Virus record (IMG/VR): IMGVR_UViG_3300042889_000900
Location: 1 to 31,476 of that record
DNA length: 31,476 nt
DNA from: a virus
Reading direction: 5' to 3' (one strand)
Positions within the stretch are counted from its first letter, which is position 1. Every line of letters begins with the position of its first letter. The notes under the pieces were generated by a model, which was not told the DNA's origin, ran no database searches, and saw nothing but the letters and a program-made list of their open reading frames with translations. Positions 1,889-12,052 of the stretch are shown here, in pieces. The position numbers were made by a program, and so were the translations under genes.

Positions 1889-2332
1889 TTAACTGTTTAA
1901 TTTTTTTAGTCTTCTTTTTTCTTTTGCCGCAGCTTTTTTGATTTTATCTCTTAATTCAGCTGCTAACTCATAATTTTCAACTTGTACAGCGTTTTCTAAT
2001 TGTTCTTCTAAAGGTAGTTCTGCTTCAGGTGGTCCAAGCGGTTCATCACTAACTAATGTTTTAATTATTACACCTAATGGTTTATACCACATACGTTTTT
2101 CAAAATACATTTCACCATCACTTGAATATTCAATATCATCTGGTTCCCCTAATTGAGTATCAAGTTCTTCATCAAGTTTATTTAATTCATCACCTGTATA
2201 ATTACCATCAGGGTTAATGTGTTTAAAACTATCAATCATATCAATGATTTTTTTAGCTTCTTTATTAATAAAATCATCTTCTTTTTTCTTTTCACCAAAG
2301 AATTTATTAAAAAGGTCATCAAAGCTTGCCAT
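1889..2332 (-). CDS. small UVR-motif protein
   Basis: 147 aa, mostly charged and probably helical. The C-terminal stretch LEEQLENAVQVENYELAAEL plus RDKIKK matches the UVR motif of UvrB and UvrC, an approximately 35-residue antiparallel helical hairpin used for protein-protein contact. The N-terminus has a Lys/Glu-rich segment (FFGEKKKEDDF). It directly follows the duplicated membrane protein with a 1-nt gap, so the two are cotranscribed. There is no catalytic signature. It may be an adaptor protein, but this is inference from the motif alone. No T-rich hairpin follows it convincingly. Confidence 0.75.
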   Translation of the reverse strand: MASFDDLFNKFFGEKKKEDDFINKEAKKIIDMIDSFKHINPDGNYTGDELNKLDEELDTQLGEPDDIEYSSDGEMYFEKRMWYKPLGVIIKTLVSDEPLGPPEAELPLEEQLENAVQVENYELAAELRDKIKKAAAKEKRRLKKLNS

Positions 2333-2333
2333 A

Positions 2334-2780
2334 TTATTTTTGTTTTAATTTACGTTTTATGTGATTATGTGTTTTAACTGAATGATATTTAAATGCAAGT
2401 ATAGGATTTATATTGTAGAAATACATAAATAAAGCAAAGAAAAATCCTGCTAACATATACATAATACTAATTGTCATCCAATAATCTTTGGTTATAGAAT
2501 TAATCCAATATACTACTAAGTCATAACCCAAAGGATTTAAAAACAAAGCTATTGTTATTAAAATATTACCTAAAGTTTTTTTATTTAATTTAAATGAGAG
2601 AAACGATAATATAAACGATAGGAATGCAAATCCATAAAGTACGAACATTGTATGCCAATAATCTTTGGTTAATTCTGTCAGTTTGTAAACCAATATGTCG
2701 AAACCCATGGGGTTCAGGAATGTCGCTGTCATTAGGCAAACTGTCCCTAAGACTTTCCTGTTTATCGCTTTTACTATCAC
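2334..2780 (-). CDS. internally duplicated membrane protein
   Basis: 148 aa with four predicted membrane helices built from a tandem repeat. The first half has FLNPMGFDILVYKL..TKDYW and the second FLNPLGYDLVVYWI..TKDYW, each followed by a second hydrophobic helix. The C-terminus is basic (HNHIKRKLK). The start used is GTG at 2780. An ATG at 2808 opens a different frame, so a frameshift or misplaced start cannot be excluded. It is followed at once by the UVR-motif gene and preceded by a promoter and a leader hairpin. I do not know its function. The conserved NPxGxD motif in both repeats suggests a symmetric membrane unit. Confidence 0.7.
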   Translation of the reverse strand: MIVKAINRKVLGTVCLMTATFLNPMGFDILVYKLTELTKDYWHTMFVLYGFAFLSFILSFLSFKLNKKTLGNILITIALFLNPLGYDLVVYWINSITKDYWMTISIMYMLAGFFFALFMYFYNINPILAFKYHSVKTHNHIKRKLKQK

Positions 2781-2916: not shown

Positions 2917-3738
2917 TTATGATTTAAGGAGTAATTCTTTTATATCAGAAACTAATCTTCTATGACCATCACCATAAAGTTGCCAAGCTAACCCCATTGC
3001 TTTTAAATCATAATGTTTCAATATTGTTGAATAATTAGTTTCTCCTTCTGGAAATCCAACTACATAAATACTATCAGCCAATTCAGCCGCTAAACGAATA
3101 TCGTGTGTGGAGAATATAATCGTATTTAATTCATTAGCAGCACTAATTTTATCAAATGATTGTTTTACTTTTTCAATATTCCCAACATCTAACCCAGAGA
3201 ATGGTTCATCTAATATCATAAAGTGTTTAGATGTAAGCATTTGCTCAATGATTGCTGTTCTTTGTCTTTGACCACCAGACAACTCACACGAGTATTTATC
3301 TTTGTGTTCCATCAACCCCCAATCAGTTAAATACTCATTAATTATAGTATCTTTTTCAGCTTTTGTAAGTGTTGATTTTCTCAAAGCATACTCACATATC
3401 TGCGTAATGGTTTTGTGTCTAAAAAGGGTGTATTTTTGGTCTACAAACCCCATATCACCTTTATCTAATGGTTTAGCATCATTCTCATCTTCTGTAGTTA
3501 AATCAGTAATAAGGACTTGACCTTGTGTTGGTTTAAGCAAACCAGTAAGTCCTTTGAAAAGAGTTGATTTCCCTCTACCAGAACGACCAATGAACGCAAT
3601 AACTTGTCCAGTTGATTGGTGGCCTTCTCTAACAATATCTTTAATATCAAAATTGATATTTTTAAGAATTGATTTCCCATCGTAACCTAAGCTAACATCA
3701 TTGATGTACAATAGGGTTTTTGTTTCTTTATAACTCAT
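2917..3738 (-). CDS. ABC transporter ATP-binding subunit
   Basis: A 273-aa nucleotide-binding subunit of the nitrate/sulfonate/taurine-type (SsuB/TauB-like) importer group. Motifs appear in order: Walker A GRSGRGKST (about residues 51-59), Q-loop DMGFVDQ (Gln101), signature LSGGQRQR (153-160), Walker B HFMILDEP with catalytic Glu178, and switch His212 in STHDIR. All catalytic residues are intact, so it should hydrolyse ATP. The partner is very likely the permease at 5043-5819. The two are separated by a small gene and by an inserted endonuclease cassette. It is cotranscribed with the 118-aa gene from the promoter at 4128-4158. The substrate cannot be read from the sequence. Confidence 0.9.
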   Translation of the reverse strand: MSYKETKTLLYINDVSLGYDGKSILKNINFDIKDIVREGHQSTGQVIAFIGRSGRGKSTLFKGLTGLLKPTQGQVLITDLTTEDENDAKPLDKGDMGFVDQKYTLFRHKTITQICEYALRKSTLTKAEKDTIINEYLTDWGLMEHKDKYSCELSGGQRQRTAIIEQMLTSKHFMILDEPFSGLDVGNIEKVKQSFDKISAANELNTIIFSTHDIRLAAELADSIYVVGFPEGETNYSTILKHYDLKAMGLAWQLYGDGHRRLVSDIKELLLKS

Positions 3739-3748
3739 AATTTTATAT

Positions 3749-4105
3749 TTAATAACTTATTGTTCCTAATCTGTCAAAACTCGTAGCACCTTTGGTTTTA
3801 TTACATATCATTAAGATTTTTTTGGTTTCGTAGTGTTTTATGTAATTTTCATCAAAATCAACGCCACTATATTCATCAATAAGTGACCAATTATCAAAAC
3901 CAATATCATGTAATTCATATAAGGGTTTTTCATCTCTCTGTTGTCTTAAATTTAAACTTTCTAACAATGCTGTTCTTTTCATTCGCATTAGTTGAGTTTC
4001 TATAATTTCAAAATCAACAAAATCAATAGCTGCTGGATGAAACATTTTAACCTCAGCATTATCTGGAAGTTTATCCAATAACTCTTTTAGTTTTTTAACT
4101 TTCAT
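3749..4105 (-). CDS. hypothetical protein, 118 aa
   Basis: Begins MKVKKLKELLDKLPDNAEVK, a start common in small phage proteins of unknown function where a short helix is followed by an acidic LPDNAEV turn. No catalytic motif, signal peptide or membrane helix. It lies 10 bp upstream of the ABC ATPase gene and has its own promoter, so it is the first gene of a two-gene operon. Whether it has anything to do with transport is unknown. Confidence 0.75.
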   Translation of the reverse strand: MKVKKLKELLDKLPDNAEVKMFHPAAIDFVDFEIIETQLMRMKRTALLESLNLRQQRDEKPLYELHDIGFDNWSLIDEYSGVDFDENYIKHYETKKILMICNKTKGATSFDRLGTISY

Positions 4106-4127
4106 AATTTTATTTTTTATTAGACCA

Positions 4128-4158
4128 CAAAGATACGTTTATTTTCTAAAACACCAAA
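4128..4158 (-). promoter_or_regulatory. promoter of the 118-aa / ATPase operon
   Basis: TTTG-N19-TATCTTTG (caaa 4155-4158, caaagata 4128-4135). The upstream box reads TTTGGTG. It is divergent from the cassette promoter that starts about 30 bp to its right. Confidence 0.8.
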
Positions 4159-4185
4159 TTAATTTATAGTTTTATTTTAAAATAC

Positions 4186-4215
4186 TTGACTTTTTATAAT
4201 ATTTCTATATATTTA
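4186..4215 (+). promoter_or_regulatory. promoter of RHH-HNH cassette 1, with candidate operator
   Basis: TTG (4186-4188)-N19-TATATTTA (4208-4215). The bases after TTG are ACTTTTTATA, nearly identical to the promoters of the two other plus-strand cassettes. A palindrome TGTATACA at 4218-4225 overlaps the expected transcription start and is a candidate site for the RHH protein encoded next. Confidence 0.7.
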
Positions 4216-4235
4216 TATGTATACACAACGTAAAG

Positions 4236-4400
4236 ATGAAAAAAGAAATTAAACACAACAAATTAATGAATGTTAGAATGTCAGAAAGTCTAATAAAAGA
4301 ATATAAAAATCATTGTGAAAATAATGGTTTAGTTATATCAACAAGAATAAGGTTCCTTATCCAAAAAGATATTGAAGGTAAAATTAAAATAGAAAAATAA
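4236..4400 (+). CDS. ribbon-helix-helix-like small protein (cassette 1)
   Basis: 54 aa with the layout of Arc/MetJ/CopG-type DNA-binding proteins: a basic start (MKKEIKHNK), a strand-like LMNVRMSES, helix LIKEYKNHCENNG, then helix VISTRIRFLIQKDIEGK. The stop codon overlaps the ATG of the HNH gene (TAATG), so translation is probably coupled. Homologous-looking 52-53-aa proteins precede the endonucleases at 21160 and 22632 in the same way. I infer an autorepressor that limits endonuclease expression. No binding site is proven. The alternative is a nickase or endonuclease accessory factor. Confidence 0.7.
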   Translation: MKKEIKHNKLMNVRMSESLIKEYKNHCENNGLVISTRIRFLIQKDIEGKIKIEK

Positions 4401-5032
4401 TGGAAAACAAGTGCTGTAGAGAATGTGGTTTATCTAAACCATTATGTGATTTTAGTTTATGTACCAAAAATAAAGATGGTTACAATAACTTTTGTAAATC
4501 ATGCCGTAACGCTAAAGATAAACTTTATCGAGACCAAAATAAAGAAAAAATATCTAATCGTTTAAAAGAATATAATGCTAAAGAAAATGTAAAGAAAATG
4601 CGTAGTGAATATGCAAGAAAGTTTAGACAAGAAAACCTTTTAGAAATGAGAAAAAAAGCATTAGAAAAACAAAAACTATTAAGAGAGACTGACCCATTTT
4701 TTAGATTCAAACAAAGCGTTAGAAATAGGATTAACAATTCACTAAAACATAATGGTATTAGAAAAAATTCAAAAACTGCTATAATACTTGGTTGTTCTTT
4801 CCAAGATTTTAGGGATTATTTAGAATCTAAATTTGAATCGTGGATGAATTGGGATAACAGAGGGTTATATAATGGAACACCAGAATATGGTTGGGATATT
4901 GACCATATGATACCTTCATGTTCAGCTAAAACGGAAGAAGAATTAATTCAACTTAATCATTATTCCAATCTTCAACCTTTATGTAGTTACATTAATCGTG
5001 ATATAAAAAGAAATAACCCTATAAAAATATAG
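4400..5032 (+). CDS. HNH homing endonuclease (cassette 1)
   Basis: 210 aa. The N-terminus has a zinc-binding CRECGLSKPLCDF..FCKSC module, the middle is a long basic helical region, and the C-terminal HNH/His-Me finger carries YGWDIDHMIP with the catalytic His and a downstream NHYSNLQPLC..NRDIK segment. It closely resembles the protein at 22632-23174, including WMNWDN and the DIDH core. It is encoded opposite to the surrounding operon, between the transporter permease and ATPase genes, which indicates insertion. Its 3' end lies inside a 13-bp hairpin that can terminate transcription on both strands. Confidence 0.85.
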   Translation: MENKCCRECGLSKPLCDFSLCTKNKDGYNNFCKSCRNAKDKLYRDQNKEKISNRLKEYNAKENVKKMRSEYARKFRQENLLEMRKKALEKQKLLRETDPFFRFKQSVRNRINNSLKHNGIRKNSKTAIILGCSFQDFRDYLESKFESWMNWDNRGLYNGTPEYGWDIDHMIPSCSAKTEEELIQLNHYSNLQPLCSYINRDIKRNNPIKI

Positions 5033-5045
5033 GGTTATTTTATTA
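5011..5045. terminator. bidirectional terminator, HNH gene / permease
   Basis: A 13-bp stem (5011-5023 with 5028-5040) with loop AAAA and a T-rich sequence on both sides. It ends the plus-strand cassette and, read on the minus strand, follows the permease stop codon at 5043. Confidence 0.75.
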
Positions 5046-5819
5046 AAAATTAGAAAATCTAAATACAAGTTTTCGCAATCTAGTAAGTAAGAAATCTAAA
5101 CAAACTCCAATTATAATTATAATTGCTTGTATAGCAATAACTCTTCCGTTACTTCCAAGTCTATCACCATTTTTAATTAGTACACCTAAACCACCAGCGG
5201 CAACTAATATAGACTCTATCGTCACCAACATAACCCATACAATTGCTAGATTTTGTCTAACCAATTCTATTACATAATCTAACCTACCTTTGATTACGAC
5301 TTCCCATAAGGTTTCCCAATGATTACACCCAAGTGTTTTAGCATGTTCAAATTCTTCATTTGGTATATCCTTAATCATTTGAATAAGACTGGTGATAAGA
5401 AATGTAGACATAAAGATAACAAGTACCCAAACTTGAATTTGTCTCGCATCTGAAATCATTATTGTAATGTAAAATGCTATTCCAGTTGGTGGTAAGTATC
5501 TTAATTTAGATAAGAATGTTCCTAATGATTTAGAGAAAGCAATTGTTGTTAAGTAAGCAAATATCATTGAGATAATCACTGAAAAGAATATTGCTTGGAA
5601 ACACAATGATAGTGAACTAGCTAACTGTGTAATAAGACCCTCTGACCATACATCACCTAAACCTTTAAATACTTGTGCAGGTGTTGGGAATAAATGTGTT
5701 GTTCCTATTGAACTGGACACAAACCAAAATGTAATCAATAAAGCTAACCATACTGTTACAATGATTGTTTTTGAAGAACTTTTAAGTTCTTGAAACGGAG
5801 TAAAAAACTTTTTTATCAT
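5043..5819 (-). CDS. ABC transporter permease (BPD_transp_1 type)
   Basis: 258 aa, about six membrane helices, of the binding-protein-dependent permease family (SsuC/TauC-like). The cytoplasmic coupling loop reads EEFEHAKTLGCNHWETLWEV, with the conserved A..LGC..W and a following Arg-rich helix. The PTPAQV segment near residue 45 is typical of nitrate/sulfonate-type permeases. It starts directly downstream of the terminator that follows the OmpA-fusion gene, so it is probably expressed at a lower level by read-through. The likely ATPase partner is at 2917-3738. The permease and ATPase genes are now split by the RHH-HNH cassette and a small gene. The substrate is unknown. Confidence 0.88.
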   Translation of the reverse strand: MIKKFFTPFQELKSSSKTIIVTVWLALLITFWFVSSSIGTTHLFPTPAQVFKGLGDVWSEGLITQLASSLSLCFQAIFFSVIISMIFAYLTTIAFSKSLGTFLSKLRYLPPTGIAFYITIMISDARQIQVWVLVIFMSTFLITSLIQMIKDIPNEEFEHAKTLGCNHWETLWEVVIKGRLDYVIELVRQNLAIVWVMLVTIESILVAAGGLGVLIKNGDRLGSNGRVIAIQAIIIIIGVCLDFLLTRLRKLVFRFSNF

Positions 5820-5835
5820 TTTATATAATTTAATT

Positions 5836-5868
5836 TATAAAAAAACCGTGACTATTTGCCACGGTTTT
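5836..5868 (-). terminator. terminator between OmpA fusion and permease genes
   Basis: An 8-bp stem aaaccgtg (5843-5850) / cacggttt (5860-5867) followed by a run of seven Ts on the minus strand. Position after a binding-protein gene and before the permease gene fits the common import-operon scheme of partial termination. Confidence 0.85.
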
Positions 5869-5888
5869 CTATATGTTTTATATGGCAA

Positions 5889-7703
5889 TTACTTTAATAA
5901 CGTAATTTCAACTCTACGGTTTTTAGCTTTACCACTTGCAGTTGAGTTATCAGCTACTGGATTAGCATCACCTTTACCATCAACCGTTTGGAAACGGTCA
6001 CCTGAGATACCTCTACCTTTCAAGTAACTTACAACTGATTGAGCACGACCATTAGATAATGTTACGTTACTAGCAGGATTACCTACGTTATCAGTATATC
6101 CAATCACTTTCAATTTAGTTTCCTCTGCTTGAGTTAACAAGTTATAGATGGTTTCTAAATCTTTGGTTGACCCAGAGATAGTTGCACTACCATTATCAAA
6201 GTTGATGTTCCATTGTCCGTTAGCTAATACTGAAGTTTTAGTTTCAGAATAACTAATTTTTTGAACACTACCTTTATCATTAACATTTGCAGATGTTAAG
6301 AAGTATAAGTTAACTGCATCATCGTAAGGTACAACACCATCTGGATTAGACTCATTAAAACCACATGGATTTAAGTCAGTCAAATAAGCTGAAACTTGTT
6401 CGTAAACTGCTTTATAACGATTTTTACCATCTGTGATACCGTAATACTGCATTGCATCAGCATAGTTAAATACACGTGAACCACCGATATTATAATCTAA
6501 ACCATCTTTGGTACCTTTTTGACCTTTAAACATATCATACCAGTATTTAGGTGTTTCAAAGTTATATGTTAAAGCTACAGCTTCTGAAGCTCTAACAGCC
6601 CATTCATCATATTGTTTAATTTGATTAGAAGCAACAAATGTTTGTTTCAATATAGCGATAACTTCTTTATCGTGTTGCAAAGCCCATTCTTTAACACCTA
6701 CAAGTGTTGTAGCCATTTGATTTACAAACTCTTTAGTTGATACGATATCTGTAAAACCACTCAACGCATCAAAAGCCATTTTATCCCCTGGTGTCCATGT
6801 AGTTGCACCATCAATTTTATGATTGATTGTTTTACCAGTTAATTTACCATTAACAACTTCTTTCAAAGGTACAGTATAACCAGTTTTTTGAGATTTAATC
6901 AATTCTTTTACAGAGTTAATATAATCATCATCTTGTGATGGTACGAAGTTAATCGCATTAGCATCCCAAGTTGTTGGGTCTGGATTGATAGCAATTTTAT
7001 TAGCAGCAGCATAGTTACATGCAACTACCCAGTCACCATCACCAATTACTGAAGATATAACACAACCTTTCATTGATTGAGGATTATCTTTCCAAATTCT
7101 TGGTCCAATTACTTTATCTTCACCATATGATAATCCATATGCTCCAAGAACTTGTACGTGATATTTACCTTTACCGAATTTTTCATCTAATGATTTTTGT
7201 GTAGTTGTAATATAGAATGGAACACCATCACCCATGATACTTACAGCAAATGCTGATTTATCTGATTTTGGATAAGCCACACCTGAAGCAAATTCTTCAA
7301 CAAATTTAATTTGCATATCACGTAGACCACCTACCATGTCTTGTCTTACGATTTCTAAGTTAACACCTGCGGCTTCAATAAGAGACCCTTCAGTTGTTCT
7401 TGGTCCACCATTTGCAACAATCATTCCAGCATTACCATTCCACGCATACTCCGCAATACGAATAAGTCCTTTCGAAGCTACTTCAGTAGATACCGTTTCT
7501 GATGGCAAAGGTAATTTAGCACCTTTAGTTACGTTGTTAAGGTCACCACCTTCAATTGTTAATCCAGTTAACTGTTTTGATACAGCCACTCTAAGTCCAG
7601 GTGCGAAAAAATACACACCAGTTAATAATACAGCAACACCTAGTGCTACGATAAAACCTTCTGCTAAGGTTGTTAATTTTTCTTGTTTAAGAATTCTTCC
7701 CAT
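5889..7703 (-). CDS. substrate-binding domain fused to OmpA C-terminal domain
   Basis: 604 aa. An N-terminal membrane helix (about residues 13-35) has no lipobox or clear cleavage site. A large periplasmic solute-binding-like region follows (about 60-450), resembling nitrate/sulfonate/phosphate-type binding proteins. The OmpA peptidoglycan-binding domain comes last (about 490-604), with NINFDNGSATIS, GYTDNVGN, LSNGRAQSV, DGKGDANPVADN and KNRRVEI. The Asp and Arg that hold diaminopimelate in this family are present. The protein should be anchored in the inner membrane and grip the cell wall. Similar fusions are annotated in bacteria as phosphate ABC transporter substrate-binding/OmpA proteins. 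It has its own promoter and a terminator, then the permease gene. Confidence 0.85.
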   Translation of the reverse strand: MGRILKQEKLTTLAEGFIVALGVAVLLTGVYFFAPGLRVAVSKQLTGLTIEGGDLNNVTKGAKLPLPSETVSTEVASKGLIRIAEYAWNGNAGMIVANGGPRTTEGSLIEAAGVNLEIVRQDMVGGLRDMQIKFVEEFASGVAYPKSDKSAFAVSIMGDGVPFYITTTQKSLDEKFGKGKYHVQVLGAYGLSYGEDKVIGPRIWKDNPQSMKGCVISSVIGDGDWVVACNYAAANKIAINPDPTTWDANAINFVPSQDDDYINSVKELIKSQKTGYTVPLKEVVNGKLTGKTINHKIDGATTWTPGDKMAFDALSGFTDIVSTKEFVNQMATTLVGVKEWALQHDKEVIAILKQTFVASNQIKQYDEWAVRASEAVALTYNFETPKYWYDMFKGQKGTKDGLDYNIGGSRVFNYADAMQYYGITDGKNRYKAVYEQVSAYLTDLNPCGFNESNPDGVVPYDDAVNLYFLTSANVNDKGSVQKISYSETKTSVLANGQWNINFDNGSATISGSTKDLETIYNLLTQAEETKLKVIGYTDNVGNPASNVTLSNGRAQSVVSYLKGRGISGDRFQTVDGKGDANPVADNSTASGKAKNRRVEITLLK

Positions 7704-7731
7704 TTGTTTTTATTTAATTGTTATTGTTTAA

Positions 7732-7920
7732 TTATTTAACGGTACAAAGATAATAATCTTTTTTAATGTACCAAACTTTTTTTACTTTTTTTTTATAAAA
7801 TCGCCAATTAGAGAAACTACCCATGCGATTTAAAACTCTGTTGACTTCCCATCTTACTCTATTGGCGTAGGCTTTCCTCTTTATATTTGTCCACCACTTT
7901 GCCTTGGGATACATAGTCAA
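7732..7920 (-). CDS. small basic Trp-rich protein, 62 aa (uncertain)
   Basis: The ORF starts MTMYPKAKWWTNIKRKAYAN, is very rich in Arg, Lys and Trp, and ends at 7732 within the promoter region of the OmpA-fusion gene. It follows the membrane coiled-coil gene by about 35 bp. The even composition of the first 45 residues (RVRWEVNRVLNRMGSF) looks protein-like, while the last 15 read through the promoter and may be an extension by chance. Function unknown. Confidence 0.45.
   Translation of the reverse strand: MTMYPKAKWWTNIKRKAYANRVRWEVNRVLNRMGSFSNWRFYKKKVKKVWYIKKDYYLCTVK
7745..7775 (-). promoter_or_regulatory. promoter of the OmpA-fusion gene
   Basis: TTTG-N19-TATCTTTG (caaa 7772-7775, caaagata 7745-7752), with the extended upstream box TTTGGTA shared by several phage promoters in this window. 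Confidence 0.82.
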
Positions 7921-7955
7921 CCAAGGCTACTCGAACAGTTTTTTTATTATCTTAC

Positions 7956-9089
7956 TTAGAACATATCACCAAAACCACCTGATTTTGATTTATCTTCTGT
8001 TGTTAATTTGTAATCAACATTGTTGTATTTTTTAACATCTACAACATTACCATCACCACTTTGAATTTTATCTGCGATTGCATCTAAGTTAGCAAACAAT
8101 TCATCAGAATTCAAATCGTAGTTTTGTGTCAAGCTTTCAATATCTTTAAAGTTACCAGAACTAATAGCAATATCAGCAGAAATTGTTGAAGTAATAACTT
8201 CCAACGCATAATCACGTTCCCAATCACTAGAGAAGCCCATTGCTGATTTAGCAGCACTAGTTGCAGCATTTAATTTCTGACCAGTTTCGTAATCTTTTTT
8301 CAACATATCAACAGTGGCATCAAAATCTGAGATTTTAATATCCATACCAGTTTCAACCATAACCAATTTTTGATTGATTTTTTTCAATACATTAAAACGA
8401 GTTCCGTATTTTACTGTGAAGTCTTTAGATTGACTTGCTTTATTAGCAACTTGCATAGATGTAGCAAGTGTTTTTTGTAGTTCAGCAGCCAAATCAACAT
8501 AGTCATCTTCGCTTTTAGCATCAACACCCATCTTAGCCACCATAGCTTCCATATCAGCTTTGATTTTCTCAGCTTTACCTCTTAGACGTAAAGTTTCTTT
8601 ATCACCTTTCTCAGCTTCTTCTTTTGCTCTCAACGATTCATTTTGCATATCTTGCTGTAATGACTTTAAATTACCCTTGGCAATTCTAAATGTAGCTTGA
8701 TTAGCAATCATTTTCTGTCTTGTTATTTCTAATTGACCGAATGGGTCAAATCTAATAACTGATTTGTGCATGTATCTTGTAAGAGCACGAATACCTTTAA
8801 GGATTACTGGTGCCATGATTACCAAAGCTACAACAGCAATCGCAGTAGCAACCATTGCTAAGAATTGACCTAACGCAACCATAACTGGAGGCAATACATA
8901 TACCCATAATAGGTATCCAAGCCCACCAAAGAATCCTAATTTTAAGAACCAATATAAGTTCTTTTCACCTTTTCTAAAGTTATCAACCTTAGTAACAATT
9001 TGACTCTCACTATAATTTTTCATCATAGGTAGATTCATTAAATTTGCATTTAATGTTGGAGCCGATTTAAACTGAGTTTCTGTTCCCAT
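7956..9089 (-). CDS. membrane-anchored coiled-coil protein, 377 aa
   Basis: The N-terminal 40 residues are hydrophilic. Two long hydrophobic helices follow (about 47-75 and 77-105: FLKLGFFGGLGYLLW, AMVATAIAVVALVIM). A long charged coiled coil then spans roughly residues 115-240 (ITRQKMIANQ, LRAKEEAEKGDKETL). The Gly/Phe-rich C-terminus ends KSGGFGDMF. It lies 6 bp after the 241-aa coiled-coil gene and upstream of the OmpA fusion. The layout recalls membrane-remodelling or stress proteins such as XpaC/TelA/PspA-like families, but no diagnostic motif lets me assign one. I infer a role in the same envelope system. Confidence 0.75.
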   Translation of the reverse strand: MGTETQFKSAPTLNANLMNLPMMKNYSESQIVTKVDNFRKGEKNLYWFLKLGFFGGLGYLLWVYVLPPVMVALGQFLAMVATAIAVVALVIMAPVILKGIRALTRYMHKSVIRFDPFGQLEITRQKMIANQATFRIAKGNLKSLQQDMQNESLRAKEEAEKGDKETLRLRGKAEKIKADMEAMVAKMGVDAKSEDDYVDLAAELQKTLATSMQVANKASQSKDFTVKYGTRFNVLKKINQKLVMVETGMDIKISDFDATVDMLKKDYETGQKLNAATSAAKSAMGFSSDWERDYALEVITSTISADIAISSGNFKDIESLTQNYDLNSDELFANLDAIADKIQSGDGNVVDVKKYNNVDYKLTTEDKSKSGGFGDMF

Positions 9090-9095
9090 TTTTAT

Positions 9096-9821
9096 TTATT
9101 TAACATTATTATTAATCCCTTGCTTTACTGTTTGAATAGAACCTGAAATTCTATCTTTAGCCATAGTGTTAGCAGCAAGTTTGCTATCAATTTCGCTAAG
9201 TTGTGGATTATATTTGCTATCAATTGCTGATAGTTTTCTTGTACGGTCCTCAATTTGTGTTTTCAACGCTTCTAATTGATTTCTCATATCATTTAACTCA
9301 TTGGTTAAAGATTGATTCTCATTTACTTTAAGCGATTCAACTTCTTGTCTTTTAGCTTGTCCTTTAGCTACGAAATCTTCGTATACTTTTTGAATCTCAC
9401 CTAAATAGAAATCAGCTTGTTGTATTAAACTAGTTTTAGAAATTGATTTATCCATAGCTGATACCATTTGAAATGCCATCGCATAAACAGTTGGATTATC
9501 AATACCACCACTGGCAACTGATTGATAAAACTCATAGAAATCAAAACCTGGTTGATTCAATGAATCAAAACCTTTTTGATAAAGTTCTAAAGCATTGTTT
9601 AAATACTCAGACGATGGTGCACTAGTAAAAACTGGTGTAGGTGCTGGTGTAAATGTTGGAGTTGCAGTTTCCGCAGTTGGAAAACTATAGGTAGAAGCAA
9701 CTGGTACTTCTGTTGTTGCTGCAGTCGGAAACTTTGTAGTTGAAGCCGATTGTTTTGCAGTCTCTGTAGGTTTATCTGTTGATGTTTCATCACTAACAAT
9801 AAACAAGTCTTTAAATCCCAT
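9096..9821 (-). CDS. cytoplasmic coiled-coil protein, 241 aa
   Basis: Begins MGFKDLFIVSDE, followed by a Pro/Thr/Ala-rich low-complexity linker (about residues 15-75) and a compact helical region. A coiled coil lies at about residues 155-215 (KRQEVESLKVNENQSLTNEL). There is no signal peptide or membrane helix. It is the first gene after a strong promoter and the likely partner of the following membrane coiled-coil protein. The low-complexity linker makes a tethering or scaffolding role plausible. I do not recognise a family. Confidence 0.72.
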   Translation of the reverse strand: MGFKDLFIVSDETSTDKPTETAKQSASTTKFPTAATTEVPVASTYSFPTAETATPTFTPAPTPVFTSAPSSEYLNNALELYQKGFDSLNQPGFDFYEFYQSVASGGIDNPTVYAMAFQMVSAMDKSISKTSLIQQADFYLGEIQKVYEDFVAKGQAKRQEVESLKVNENQSLTNELNDMRNQLEALKTQIEDRTRKLSAIDSKYNPQLSEIDSKLAANTMAKDRISGSIQTVKQGINNNVK

Positions 9822-10674: not shown

Positions 10675-10899
10675 TTTAATGGATAAACATTTCCAAGTGT
10701 CTATCCTTAGCAGTTTTTATATCTAGCATTGGCTGAAAACTACAAAACCAGTTCAATTTTTACTCTTGGAAGAGGGATAGTTGAACTCCAACCCAGTTGA
10801 TATGGTACAACTATTAAACCCCGAACTTGAGTTGTCGGCAACTCTACGTAATCCTAACATTAAACTTCCTAGGTTTTAATGAAATTCTTACACACATTG
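10675..10899 (-). other. 225-nt structured inter-tRNA spacer
   Basis: No ORF. Hairpins on the minus strand: 10681-10689 with 10698-10706 (9 bp), 10750-10756 with 10781-10787 (7 bp, enclosing a second hairpin), 10829-10834 with 10839-10844 (6 bp), and 10858-10864 with 10875-10881 (7 bp). Density of helices suggests a structured RNA. No known RNA family is recognised. Confidence 0.5.
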
Positions 10900-10976
10900 T
10901 GGAGAAAGCAAGAATCGAACTTGCGACCTACGGACCCAATAAAGTGACCACATTCTGCCAACTGATATATTTCCCC
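10900..10976 (-). tRNA. tRNA with abnormal anticodon arm, identity undetermined
   Basis: Acceptor GGGGAAA/TTTCTCC with A73 and T-arm GCAAG/CTTGC with loop TTCGATT are clear. The anticodon region is about 4 nt too long. A 4-bp GGTC/GGTC stem leaves a 9-nt loop that would present UUA after U33. An alternative 5-bp TGTGG/CCGTA stem leaves a 14-nt loop. The D-stem is also weak. Confidence 0.65.
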
Positions 10977-11116: not shown

Positions 11117-12010
11117 TTAAATTAATTCTATTTTGCTTAAAGGTGCCCATGTATAACCATCCTCATAAAATCCCTTATCTTGTTTTTTCACTTCTTTTTT
11201 AAATGATAATATATGTGATGCTCTTTGATTAACTAATCTACCCTCAATTGAATGACTAAATTTACTTCTATCATTTAAATAATGTTTAACTGGAACTTTA
11301 TAAACTTTAGAAATACATTTTTTCAAAGTTTCAGCTAATTTCTCACTAACCGTAGCCATAGTTTGGTTACCTCTTTTATCAATGTAACCATCACCACTAA
11401 AATAACCTTCTAACATTTTTTCTAACATGTCAATTGGCATATTTATCACGTCATCAGGTATAAATTTACCATAAGAATAACGACCAAATTTATTCAAGAA
11501 CTCCCATAATTCAGTATTATGTATTGTAAATTTATATACTGTTCTTTCTTCAGATATTGTGGCAGTATATTGTAAATCACTAAGACGTTTTTTCACATAT
11601 TCAAATTCATGTTTACCACAACATAACACAACTTTATGTATATAACCGTTTCTCCTATTTTTCCTTTTATAAGAAATAACCCAACCATCAGCTATTACTC
11701 TACCTACAAACCACCAAAAATTTTCATCATTTAAATTTAAATCATTTTTTACTTTTGTGGTTAAATAATGTGGGTTTGCTACTTCAACACCATCCCACAT
11801 TATTGGTATTGATTTTTGGTTTATTTCAGTACCAATATAATCATTTTTAGTGATATCTTTTAATTCTTTTATTATTGGTGTTTTAAATAAACGTTGACGG
11901 ATTTGTTTACCATCAACATATGGGAATTTAAAATACTTTTCCCTAGTTAAAAACTTAGTTTCTATTGGTAAGATTTGTTCTATTATTCCGAACCCTTTAA
12001 TTTTTATCAT
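11117..12010 (-). CDS. LAGLIDADG homing endonuclease
   Basis: About 297 aa with two LAGLIDADG helices: FWWFVGRVIADGWV (near residue 105) and LEKMLEGYFSGDGYI (near residue 205). Each ends in the catalytic acidic residue (ADG, GDG), so it is a monomeric two-motif enzyme. I prefer the ATG at 12010 to that at 12028, because the -7 box at 12022-12029 overlaps the upstream ATG. The start at 12010 would then be nearly leaderless. It is embedded between tRNAs on the same strand, like the GIY-YIG and HNH genes of the other arrays. No intein splice motifs flank it. Confidence 0.85.
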   Translation of the reverse strand: MIKIKGFGIIEQILPIETKFLTREKYFKFPYVDGKQIRQRLFKTPIIKELKDITKNDYIGTEINQKSIPIMWDGVEVANPHYLTTKVKNDLNLNDENFWWFVGRVIADGWVISYKRKNRRNGYIHKVVLCCGKHEFEYVKKRLSDLQYTATISEERTVYKFTIHNTELWEFLNKFGRYSYGKFIPDDVINMPIDMLEKMLEGYFSGDGYIDKRGNQTMATVSEKLAETLKKCISKVYKVPVKHYLNDRSKFSHSIEGRLVNQRASHILSFKKEVKKQDKGFYEDGYTWAPLSKIELI

Positions 12011-12021
12011 ATTTTTTTTTA

Positions 12022-12052
12022 CAAACATACAATAAAAATATAATTAATACAA
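12022..12052 (-). promoter_or_regulatory. promoter of the LAGLIDADG gene
   Basis: TTG-N20-TATGTTTG (caa 12050-12052, caaacata 12022-12029). Confidence 0.5.

Follow-up and report, generated by a model that had tools for sequence, protein, structure and literature searches.

Among described transporters, the SsuA/TauA systems of Escherichia coli and the cyanobacterial CmpA/NrtA systems share their substrate-binding protein (SBP) fold, as well as the class of their permease and ATPase, with the viral locus analysed here. The SBPs of those systems are free or lipid-anchored, and they hold neither an OmpA domain nor coiled-coil partners. The locus occupies positions 2917-9821, on the minus strand, of a 31,476-base viral stretch (IMG/VR record IMGVR_UViG_3300042889_000900, positions 1 to 31,476; hereafter the window). 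It encodes, in this order, a 241-aa coiled-coil protein, a 377-aa membrane coiled-coil protein, a 604-aa protein in which an SBP is fused to an OmpA domain (SBP-OmpA), and the permease and ATPase of an ATP-binding cassette (ABC) system. A preliminary description of this DNA had placed five such genes there in one direction, and all five open reading frames (ORFs) are present at those positions (Table 1). The same five genes recur together in many phages, as one conserved unit.

A parallel with named genes is found in Bacillus phage G, where gp243 (permease), gp245 (ABC ATPase), gp246/gp247 (coiled coils) and gp249/gp250 (SBP-OmpA) provide all five components, and whose record already bears the notes "ABC-like transporter permease" and "OmpA/MotB domain". 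Phage G differs from the window in its Gram-positive host, in its duplicated SBP gene, in an SBP-OmpA protein only ~21% identical, and in gene order, which in phage G-type loci runs permease, ATPase, coiled coil, transmembrane (TM) coiled coil, SBP-OmpA. The Prevotella Lak phages and the 735-kb phage LR756501 hold the five genes in the window's order, but with a shorter SBP-OmpA protein (~530 aa) and an N-terminal extension on the ATPase; the fusion of LR756501 has a recognisable NMT1_2 match.

Two further kinds of loci are alike in part. Those of the Vibrio plasmids pSEA2 and pIFO15640 encode, besides SBP-OmpA fusions, an ABC ATPase and permease and a membrane coiled-coil protein, but they carry three SBP genes (two SBP-OmpA fusions and another SBP) plus VWA and TelA, whereas the window proteins have no TelA match. 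The 595-kb phage LR756511 also encodes SBP-OmpA fusions, a membrane coiled coil, a permease and an ATPase. Its eight genes (L093, 7887-16449), which comprise two SBP-OmpA fusions, VWA, two coiled-coil proteins, a separate lipoprotein-like SBP, permease and ATPase, mirror the Vibrio TelA loci, but with another coiled-coil protein in the place of TelA.

The fusion itself is known as an annotation, since "phosphate ABC transporter substrate-binding/OmpA family protein" is already in use in databases for such proteins. The phage five-gene system, on the other hand, appears to be undescribed in the searchable literature, where no published description of it was found. The words "transporter" and "OmpA" are absent from the main text of Al-Shayeb et al. 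2020 (PMC7162821); the 2019 Lak paper contains no transporter term, and a magnesium transporter is the only transporter named among the annotated Lak-specific families of the 2021 Lak paper.

The five proteins

The SBP domain had no Pfam match in any of 18 members of the family, and its nature was therefore settled by structure prediction and profile comparison; a PDB sequence search likewise returned no relative of this domain. In an AlphaFold model of moderate confidence (mean predicted local distance difference test score of 69 for the 604-aa protein), residues 77-473 match SsuA (2x26, Z 15.1 over 252 residues at 4.3 A; 3uif, Z 14.0) and CmpA (2i49, Z 13.7 over 294 residues), and Foldseek also lists TauA (6ssy) and NrtA. 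By profile, the window family aligns with the fusions of phage G, the Lak phages, the 735-kb phage and clostridia (hhalign E 1.4e-6, 293 columns), and some distant SBP-OmpA homologues exceed the Pfam cut-offs for NMT1 or NMT1_2. The fold is thus supported twice, by the structure matches and by the profile link to homologues that match NMT1/NMT1_2. The preliminary description had staked its reading on a periplasmic-binding fold in this region, and the predicted structure, with its matches to SsuA, CmpA and TauA, shows such a fold.

The OmpA domain is recognised with confidence (PF00691, 63.7 bits vs a cut-off of 27.2), and its structure matches reach Z 16-18 to TagL, Pal and OmpA domains. D538 and R553 are invariant among relatives; from established knowledge of the family we take them to be the peptidoglycan contacts. 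As the N-terminus of the protein lacks a lipobox and has one TM segment preceded by positive residues, its SBP and OmpA domains should both face outward. One signal-peptide-like N-terminus hints at Bacteroidota hosts for this clade, although this is only a guess.

The permease, with an intact and conserved EAA-type loop, is closest to the SaoP/TauC type, its best matches to named subfamilies scoring 42-44 bits against cut-offs of 295-342. In the ATPase, Walker A (GRSGRGKST), the Q-loop Q101, LSGGQ, the DE of Walker B and H212 are invariant in 15 relatives, and the best score with a named NCBIfam subfamily is 116 vs a cut-off of 255. Neither protein reaches the curated cut-off of the named NCBIfam transporter subfamilies (TauC, SsuC, NrtB and others). 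Catalytic and peptidoglycan-contacting residues had been described as intact, and this holds for the ATPase motifs as for the two OmpA residues. Together with the modelled SBP, these features support assignment to the type I ABC importers of the SsuA/TauA/NrtA (NitT/TauT) class, for which uptake is predicted.

The 241-aa coiled-coil protein, without signal or TM segment and hence cytosolic, is conserved as the first gene of the set and is homologous to the first gene of the Lak phages and the 735-kb phage (hhalign E 2.8e-9). In the 377-aa protein, helices are predicted at residues 28-72, 77-114, 118-193 and 195-284, and the long hairpin after the two TM helices should be cytosolic, because these are flanked by positive residues. 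It shows weak profile similarity to the Lak-type membrane coiled-coil protein (E 7e-4). Position and architecture are the grounds for linking both proteins to their phage G versions, profile comparison being weak in that case; no relative of the coiled-coil protein was found by a PDB sequence search. Several identities were considered. TelA was rejected for either protein, as the window proteins show no PF05816 match and neither coiled-coil protein has profile similarity to it; likeness to the Vibrio membrane coiled-coil protein was tested and dropped; and the 377-aa protein, which has no PF04012 match, is not assigned to PspA/IM30 here.

A short F-x-D-(L/M)-F motif is common to the C-terminus of the 377-aa protein (KSGGFGDMF), the start of the 241-aa protein (MGFKDLFIVSDE) and the start of a 147-aa protein encoded nearby (MASFDDLF). 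This motif could bind a partner common to the three proteins.

Co-occurrence in phages and bacteria

Most of the loci compared are metagenomic and labelled only as virus contigs, and in the counts given here identical or near-identical phages that came from different samples are counted separately, so that they do not stand for independent events. All five genes are present in 41/50 viral loci of the window type. Eight others are cut by contig ends, and the remaining one has its SBP gene apart (L080), with the permease and ATPase elsewhere on the same contig (L226). A search seeded with the 377-aa protein found the complete set in 35/40 loci, and one seeded with the permease in 44/51, the gaps being contig or locus ends except for L226. 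The Lak-type loci are complete in six of seven cases, the seventh being cut by a contig end. The order coiled coil, TM coiled coil, SBP-OmpA, permease, ATPase is common to the window and Lak types.

Among the phage G-type loci, 27 of the 32 hold all five genes. Of the other five, L099 reaches the contig end; in L124, a high-GC contig of 257 kb, candidate coiled-coil genes missed by the profiles were found by reading; and the remaining three are L094, L095 and L120, the last with neither permease nor ATPase detected. In L085, L094 and L095 the permease, the coiled coils and SBP-OmpA are present and the ATPase was not detected; an ATPase of the host, or a distant one, may be in use there.

Diverged versions of the set, with all five genes, are carried by the Prevotella Lak phages, the 735-kb phage, Bacillus phage G, clostridial phages and one high-GC phage. 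The window locus belongs with the SBP-OmpA fusion family of giant phages and Bacillota, since it has a TM anchor, an SBP and an OmpA domain in one protein, and two coiled-coil genes, a permease and an ATPase nearby. The preliminary description had made its reading depend on co-occurrence of the genes elsewhere, and the five do occur together in many phages and some bacteria. Sequence and co-occurrence also back its proposals of an ABC importer class, a wall-binding OmpA fusion and a larger envelope complex, whereas the purposes that it suggested, namely feeding the infected cell, stabilising its envelope or blocking other phages, stand as proposals. Its remark that phages seldom carry whole ABC importers has to be qualified, given how frequent the five-gene set is in several lineages of giant phages.

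The closest named relative, judged by the SBP-OmpA protein (69.5% identity), is the uncultured 462-kb phage LR756500, and no near-identical phage was found in GenBank. Against the nearest relative, L002, the ratio of nonsynonymous to synonymous substitution rates (dN/dS) of all five genes is 0.05-0.17, which indicates that they are under purifying selection.

Bacterial relatives fall into three groups: a phage G-type set in Bacillota, SBP-OmpA with a membrane coiled coil and no nearby pump, and the Vibrio plasmid loci. Within the Bacillota, L148 has all five phage G-type genes, and L089, a chromosomal contig of a metagenome-assembled genome, has the set without the small coiled-coil gene. L086 and L087 adjoin phage-like replication genes, and the locus of L087 appears a second time as a predicted virus of 134 kb (L101). 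In L146 and L147 the membrane coiled-coil gene follows the SBP-OmpA gene, and L141 has the same neighbour. Bacterial carriage is underestimated by these figures, since the contig scan was pattern-based and the profile scan covered only two orders.

The preliminary description had also proposed a terminator between the binding-protein and permease genes. This element is real: it was missed by a terminator scan and found by reading and folding the sequence, and a hairpin with a T-run stands at the same site in 12/14 relatives tested, with differing stem sequences. This fits transcription as two modules, in which the SBP and coiled-coil proteins would be made in excess.

Importer, sensor or exclusion device

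The reading that we favour, at about even confidence, is that the phage uses the cassette to produce a type I ABC importer whose SBP is tethered to both membrane and wall and whose coiled-coil partners lie on the cytosolic side. The tethered SBP would take a small solute in the periplasm (in Gram-positive hosts, outside the membrane) and pass it to the permease, which, like the ATPase, would form a homodimer. The OmpA domain would fix the complex to the wall, and the coiled-coil pair would scaffold or regulate the pump at its cytosolic face. Through the terminator after the SBP gene, the SBP and the coiled-coil proteins would be made in excess over the permease and the ATPase. The benefit would lie in solute supply and envelope homeostasis through the long infection by a very large phage.

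Several observations weigh against import as the function. An SBP tethered twice is unusual, and such tethering could limit delivery. The phage G-type loci L094 and L095 yielded no ATPase, and L120 yielded neither an ATPase nor a permease. The bacterial L145, L146 and L147 have SBP-OmpA genes with no permease or ATPase found nearby, from which it follows that the pump is not always needed. This last group, in which L146 and L147 also have a membrane coiled-coil gene, favours a less probable but still serious reading, in which the complex is a ligand-gated envelope sensor or a mechanical tether and not a nutrient importer. SBP-OmpA would then read a periplasmic signal or the distance to the wall, and the signal would pass via the ABC core to cytosolic coiled coils that support the inner membrane much as PspA does. 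It agrees with the position of SBP-OmpA fusions beside VWA in the Vibrio plasmids and the 595-kb phage, and beside TelA stress-type genes in Vibrio. The membrane coiled coils of phage G-type loci also give repeated full-length matches to PspA/IM30 (PF04012), with E 1.9e-4 to 0.04, although at 13.9-21.5 bits they stay under the cut-off of 33.9. However, the coiled-coil protein of the window has no such match, and for its predicted helical hairpin Vipp1 ranks level with unrelated helical proteins in structure comparison. Moreover, full conservation of the ATPase and permease in nearly all of the phages is an argument that transport cycles really occur; it is this conservation of the catalytic parts that makes us prefer the importer over a sensor or tether.

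It seems improbable that the set is a device for superinfection exclusion or against other phages, acting by a change in the infected cell's envelope. Such devices are usually small and fast-evolving, whereas this five-gene set is widespread and under purifying selection, and PADLOC gives only generic matches to ATPase and MotB/OmpA domains. Its envelope-wide location would suit that role, and Al-Shayeb et al. 2020 (PMC7162821) suggest it generally for the membrane and surface proteins that huge phages encode. Slightly less probable again is an ordinary nutrient transporter of the host, recently acquired as a moron gene set. The core domains all belong to bacterial families and bacterial relatives exist, but the set is old in phages, with several deeply diverged lineages and coiled-coil partners of its own, and in one sampled bacterial order only 2/295 genomes carry the full-length fusion, one of the two copies in a predicted prophage.

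A broader interpretation, which we regard as tentative when its parts are taken jointly, is that this is a new phage-encoded envelope machine, in which an ABC core unites the wall and the inner membrane with a coiled-coil scaffold in the cytosol as a single complex; that giant phages of different hosts employ it for sensing the infected cell's envelope or for maintaining it; and that it has a parallel in a bacterial stress system built on TelA and VWA proteins. Giant phages of several unrelated lineages may rebuild or monitor the host envelope via this set. A complete, ancient SBP-dependent ABC system shared by several giant-phage lineages points to long infections, during which the phage would manage the envelope or the nutrition of its host. 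Phage G grows in a laboratory host, Bacillus megaterium, so that gp243-gp250 offer a direct way to examine the question.

Neighbouring genes and other features

Table 1. Features of the locus and its surroundings (positions in the window)
Feature	Position	Strand	Basis or remarks
Soluble coiled-coil protein, 241 aa	9096..9821	-	ORF; N-terminal motif MGFKDLFIVSDE, P/T-rich linker, helical C-terminal part
Membrane-anchored coiled-coil protein, 377 aa	7956..9089	-	ORF, alignment; two TM helices, DPF motif, long predicted helical hairpin, C-terminal KSGGFGDMF
SBP-OmpA fusion, 604 aa	5889..7703	-	TM anchor 12-33 (no lipobox), SBP ~77-473, OmpA domain ~495-604
Intrinsic terminator between SBP-OmpA and permease genes	~5838..5868	-	Sequence and folding, z -3.97
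ABC permease, 258 aa, BPD_transp_1	5043..5819	-	PF00528, 40.8 bits vs cut-off 26.4
ABC ATPase, 273 aa, all catalytic motifs intact	2917..3738	-	PF00005, E 8.8e-26
Terminator-like hairpin after permease, also at end of convergent HNH gene	5011..5040	-	Scan, folding
HNH-type endonuclease gene, 210 aa, inserted, outside the set	4400..5032	+	PHROG endonuclease VII, E 6e-16
ORF, 118 aa, outside the set	3749..4105	-	Between permease and ATPase
Membrane protein, 148 aa, two similar halves, associated gene	2334..2780	-	Downstream of ATPase in many relatives
Protein, 147 aa, N-terminal MASFDDLF and UVR motif, associated gene	1889..2332	-	PF02151, 30.4 bits vs cut-off 21.5

The permease and ATPase genes are not adjacent in the window, being separated by the HNH-type endonuclease gene and the 118-aa ORF. 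Endonuclease genes akin to the former lie near or within the cassette in L020 and L022. The 118-aa ORF has no relative among the related loci, and domain and family searches assigned it to no family. Downstream of the ATPase, the genes for the 148-aa and 147-aa proteins are often kept together with the five-gene set, the UVR-motif gene following the cassette in ~20 relatives.

L002 has an extra gene at 6265-7098 (277 aa, with a Gly/Ser/Cys-rich tail) between the genes for the 377-aa protein and the SBP, where the window has only a 250-base gap; an Rfam search of this gap found no family. Elsewhere, the record encodes a DNA ligase, T4-like RNA ligases, homing endonucleases and 16 tRNA-like genes. 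A LAGLIDADG protein at 11117-12028 resembles part of a PHROG named anaerobic ribonucleotide reductase large subunit, and a weak tRNA (32 bits) at 10899-10976, which may be degenerate, has the anticodon TTA and would read the stop codon UAA.

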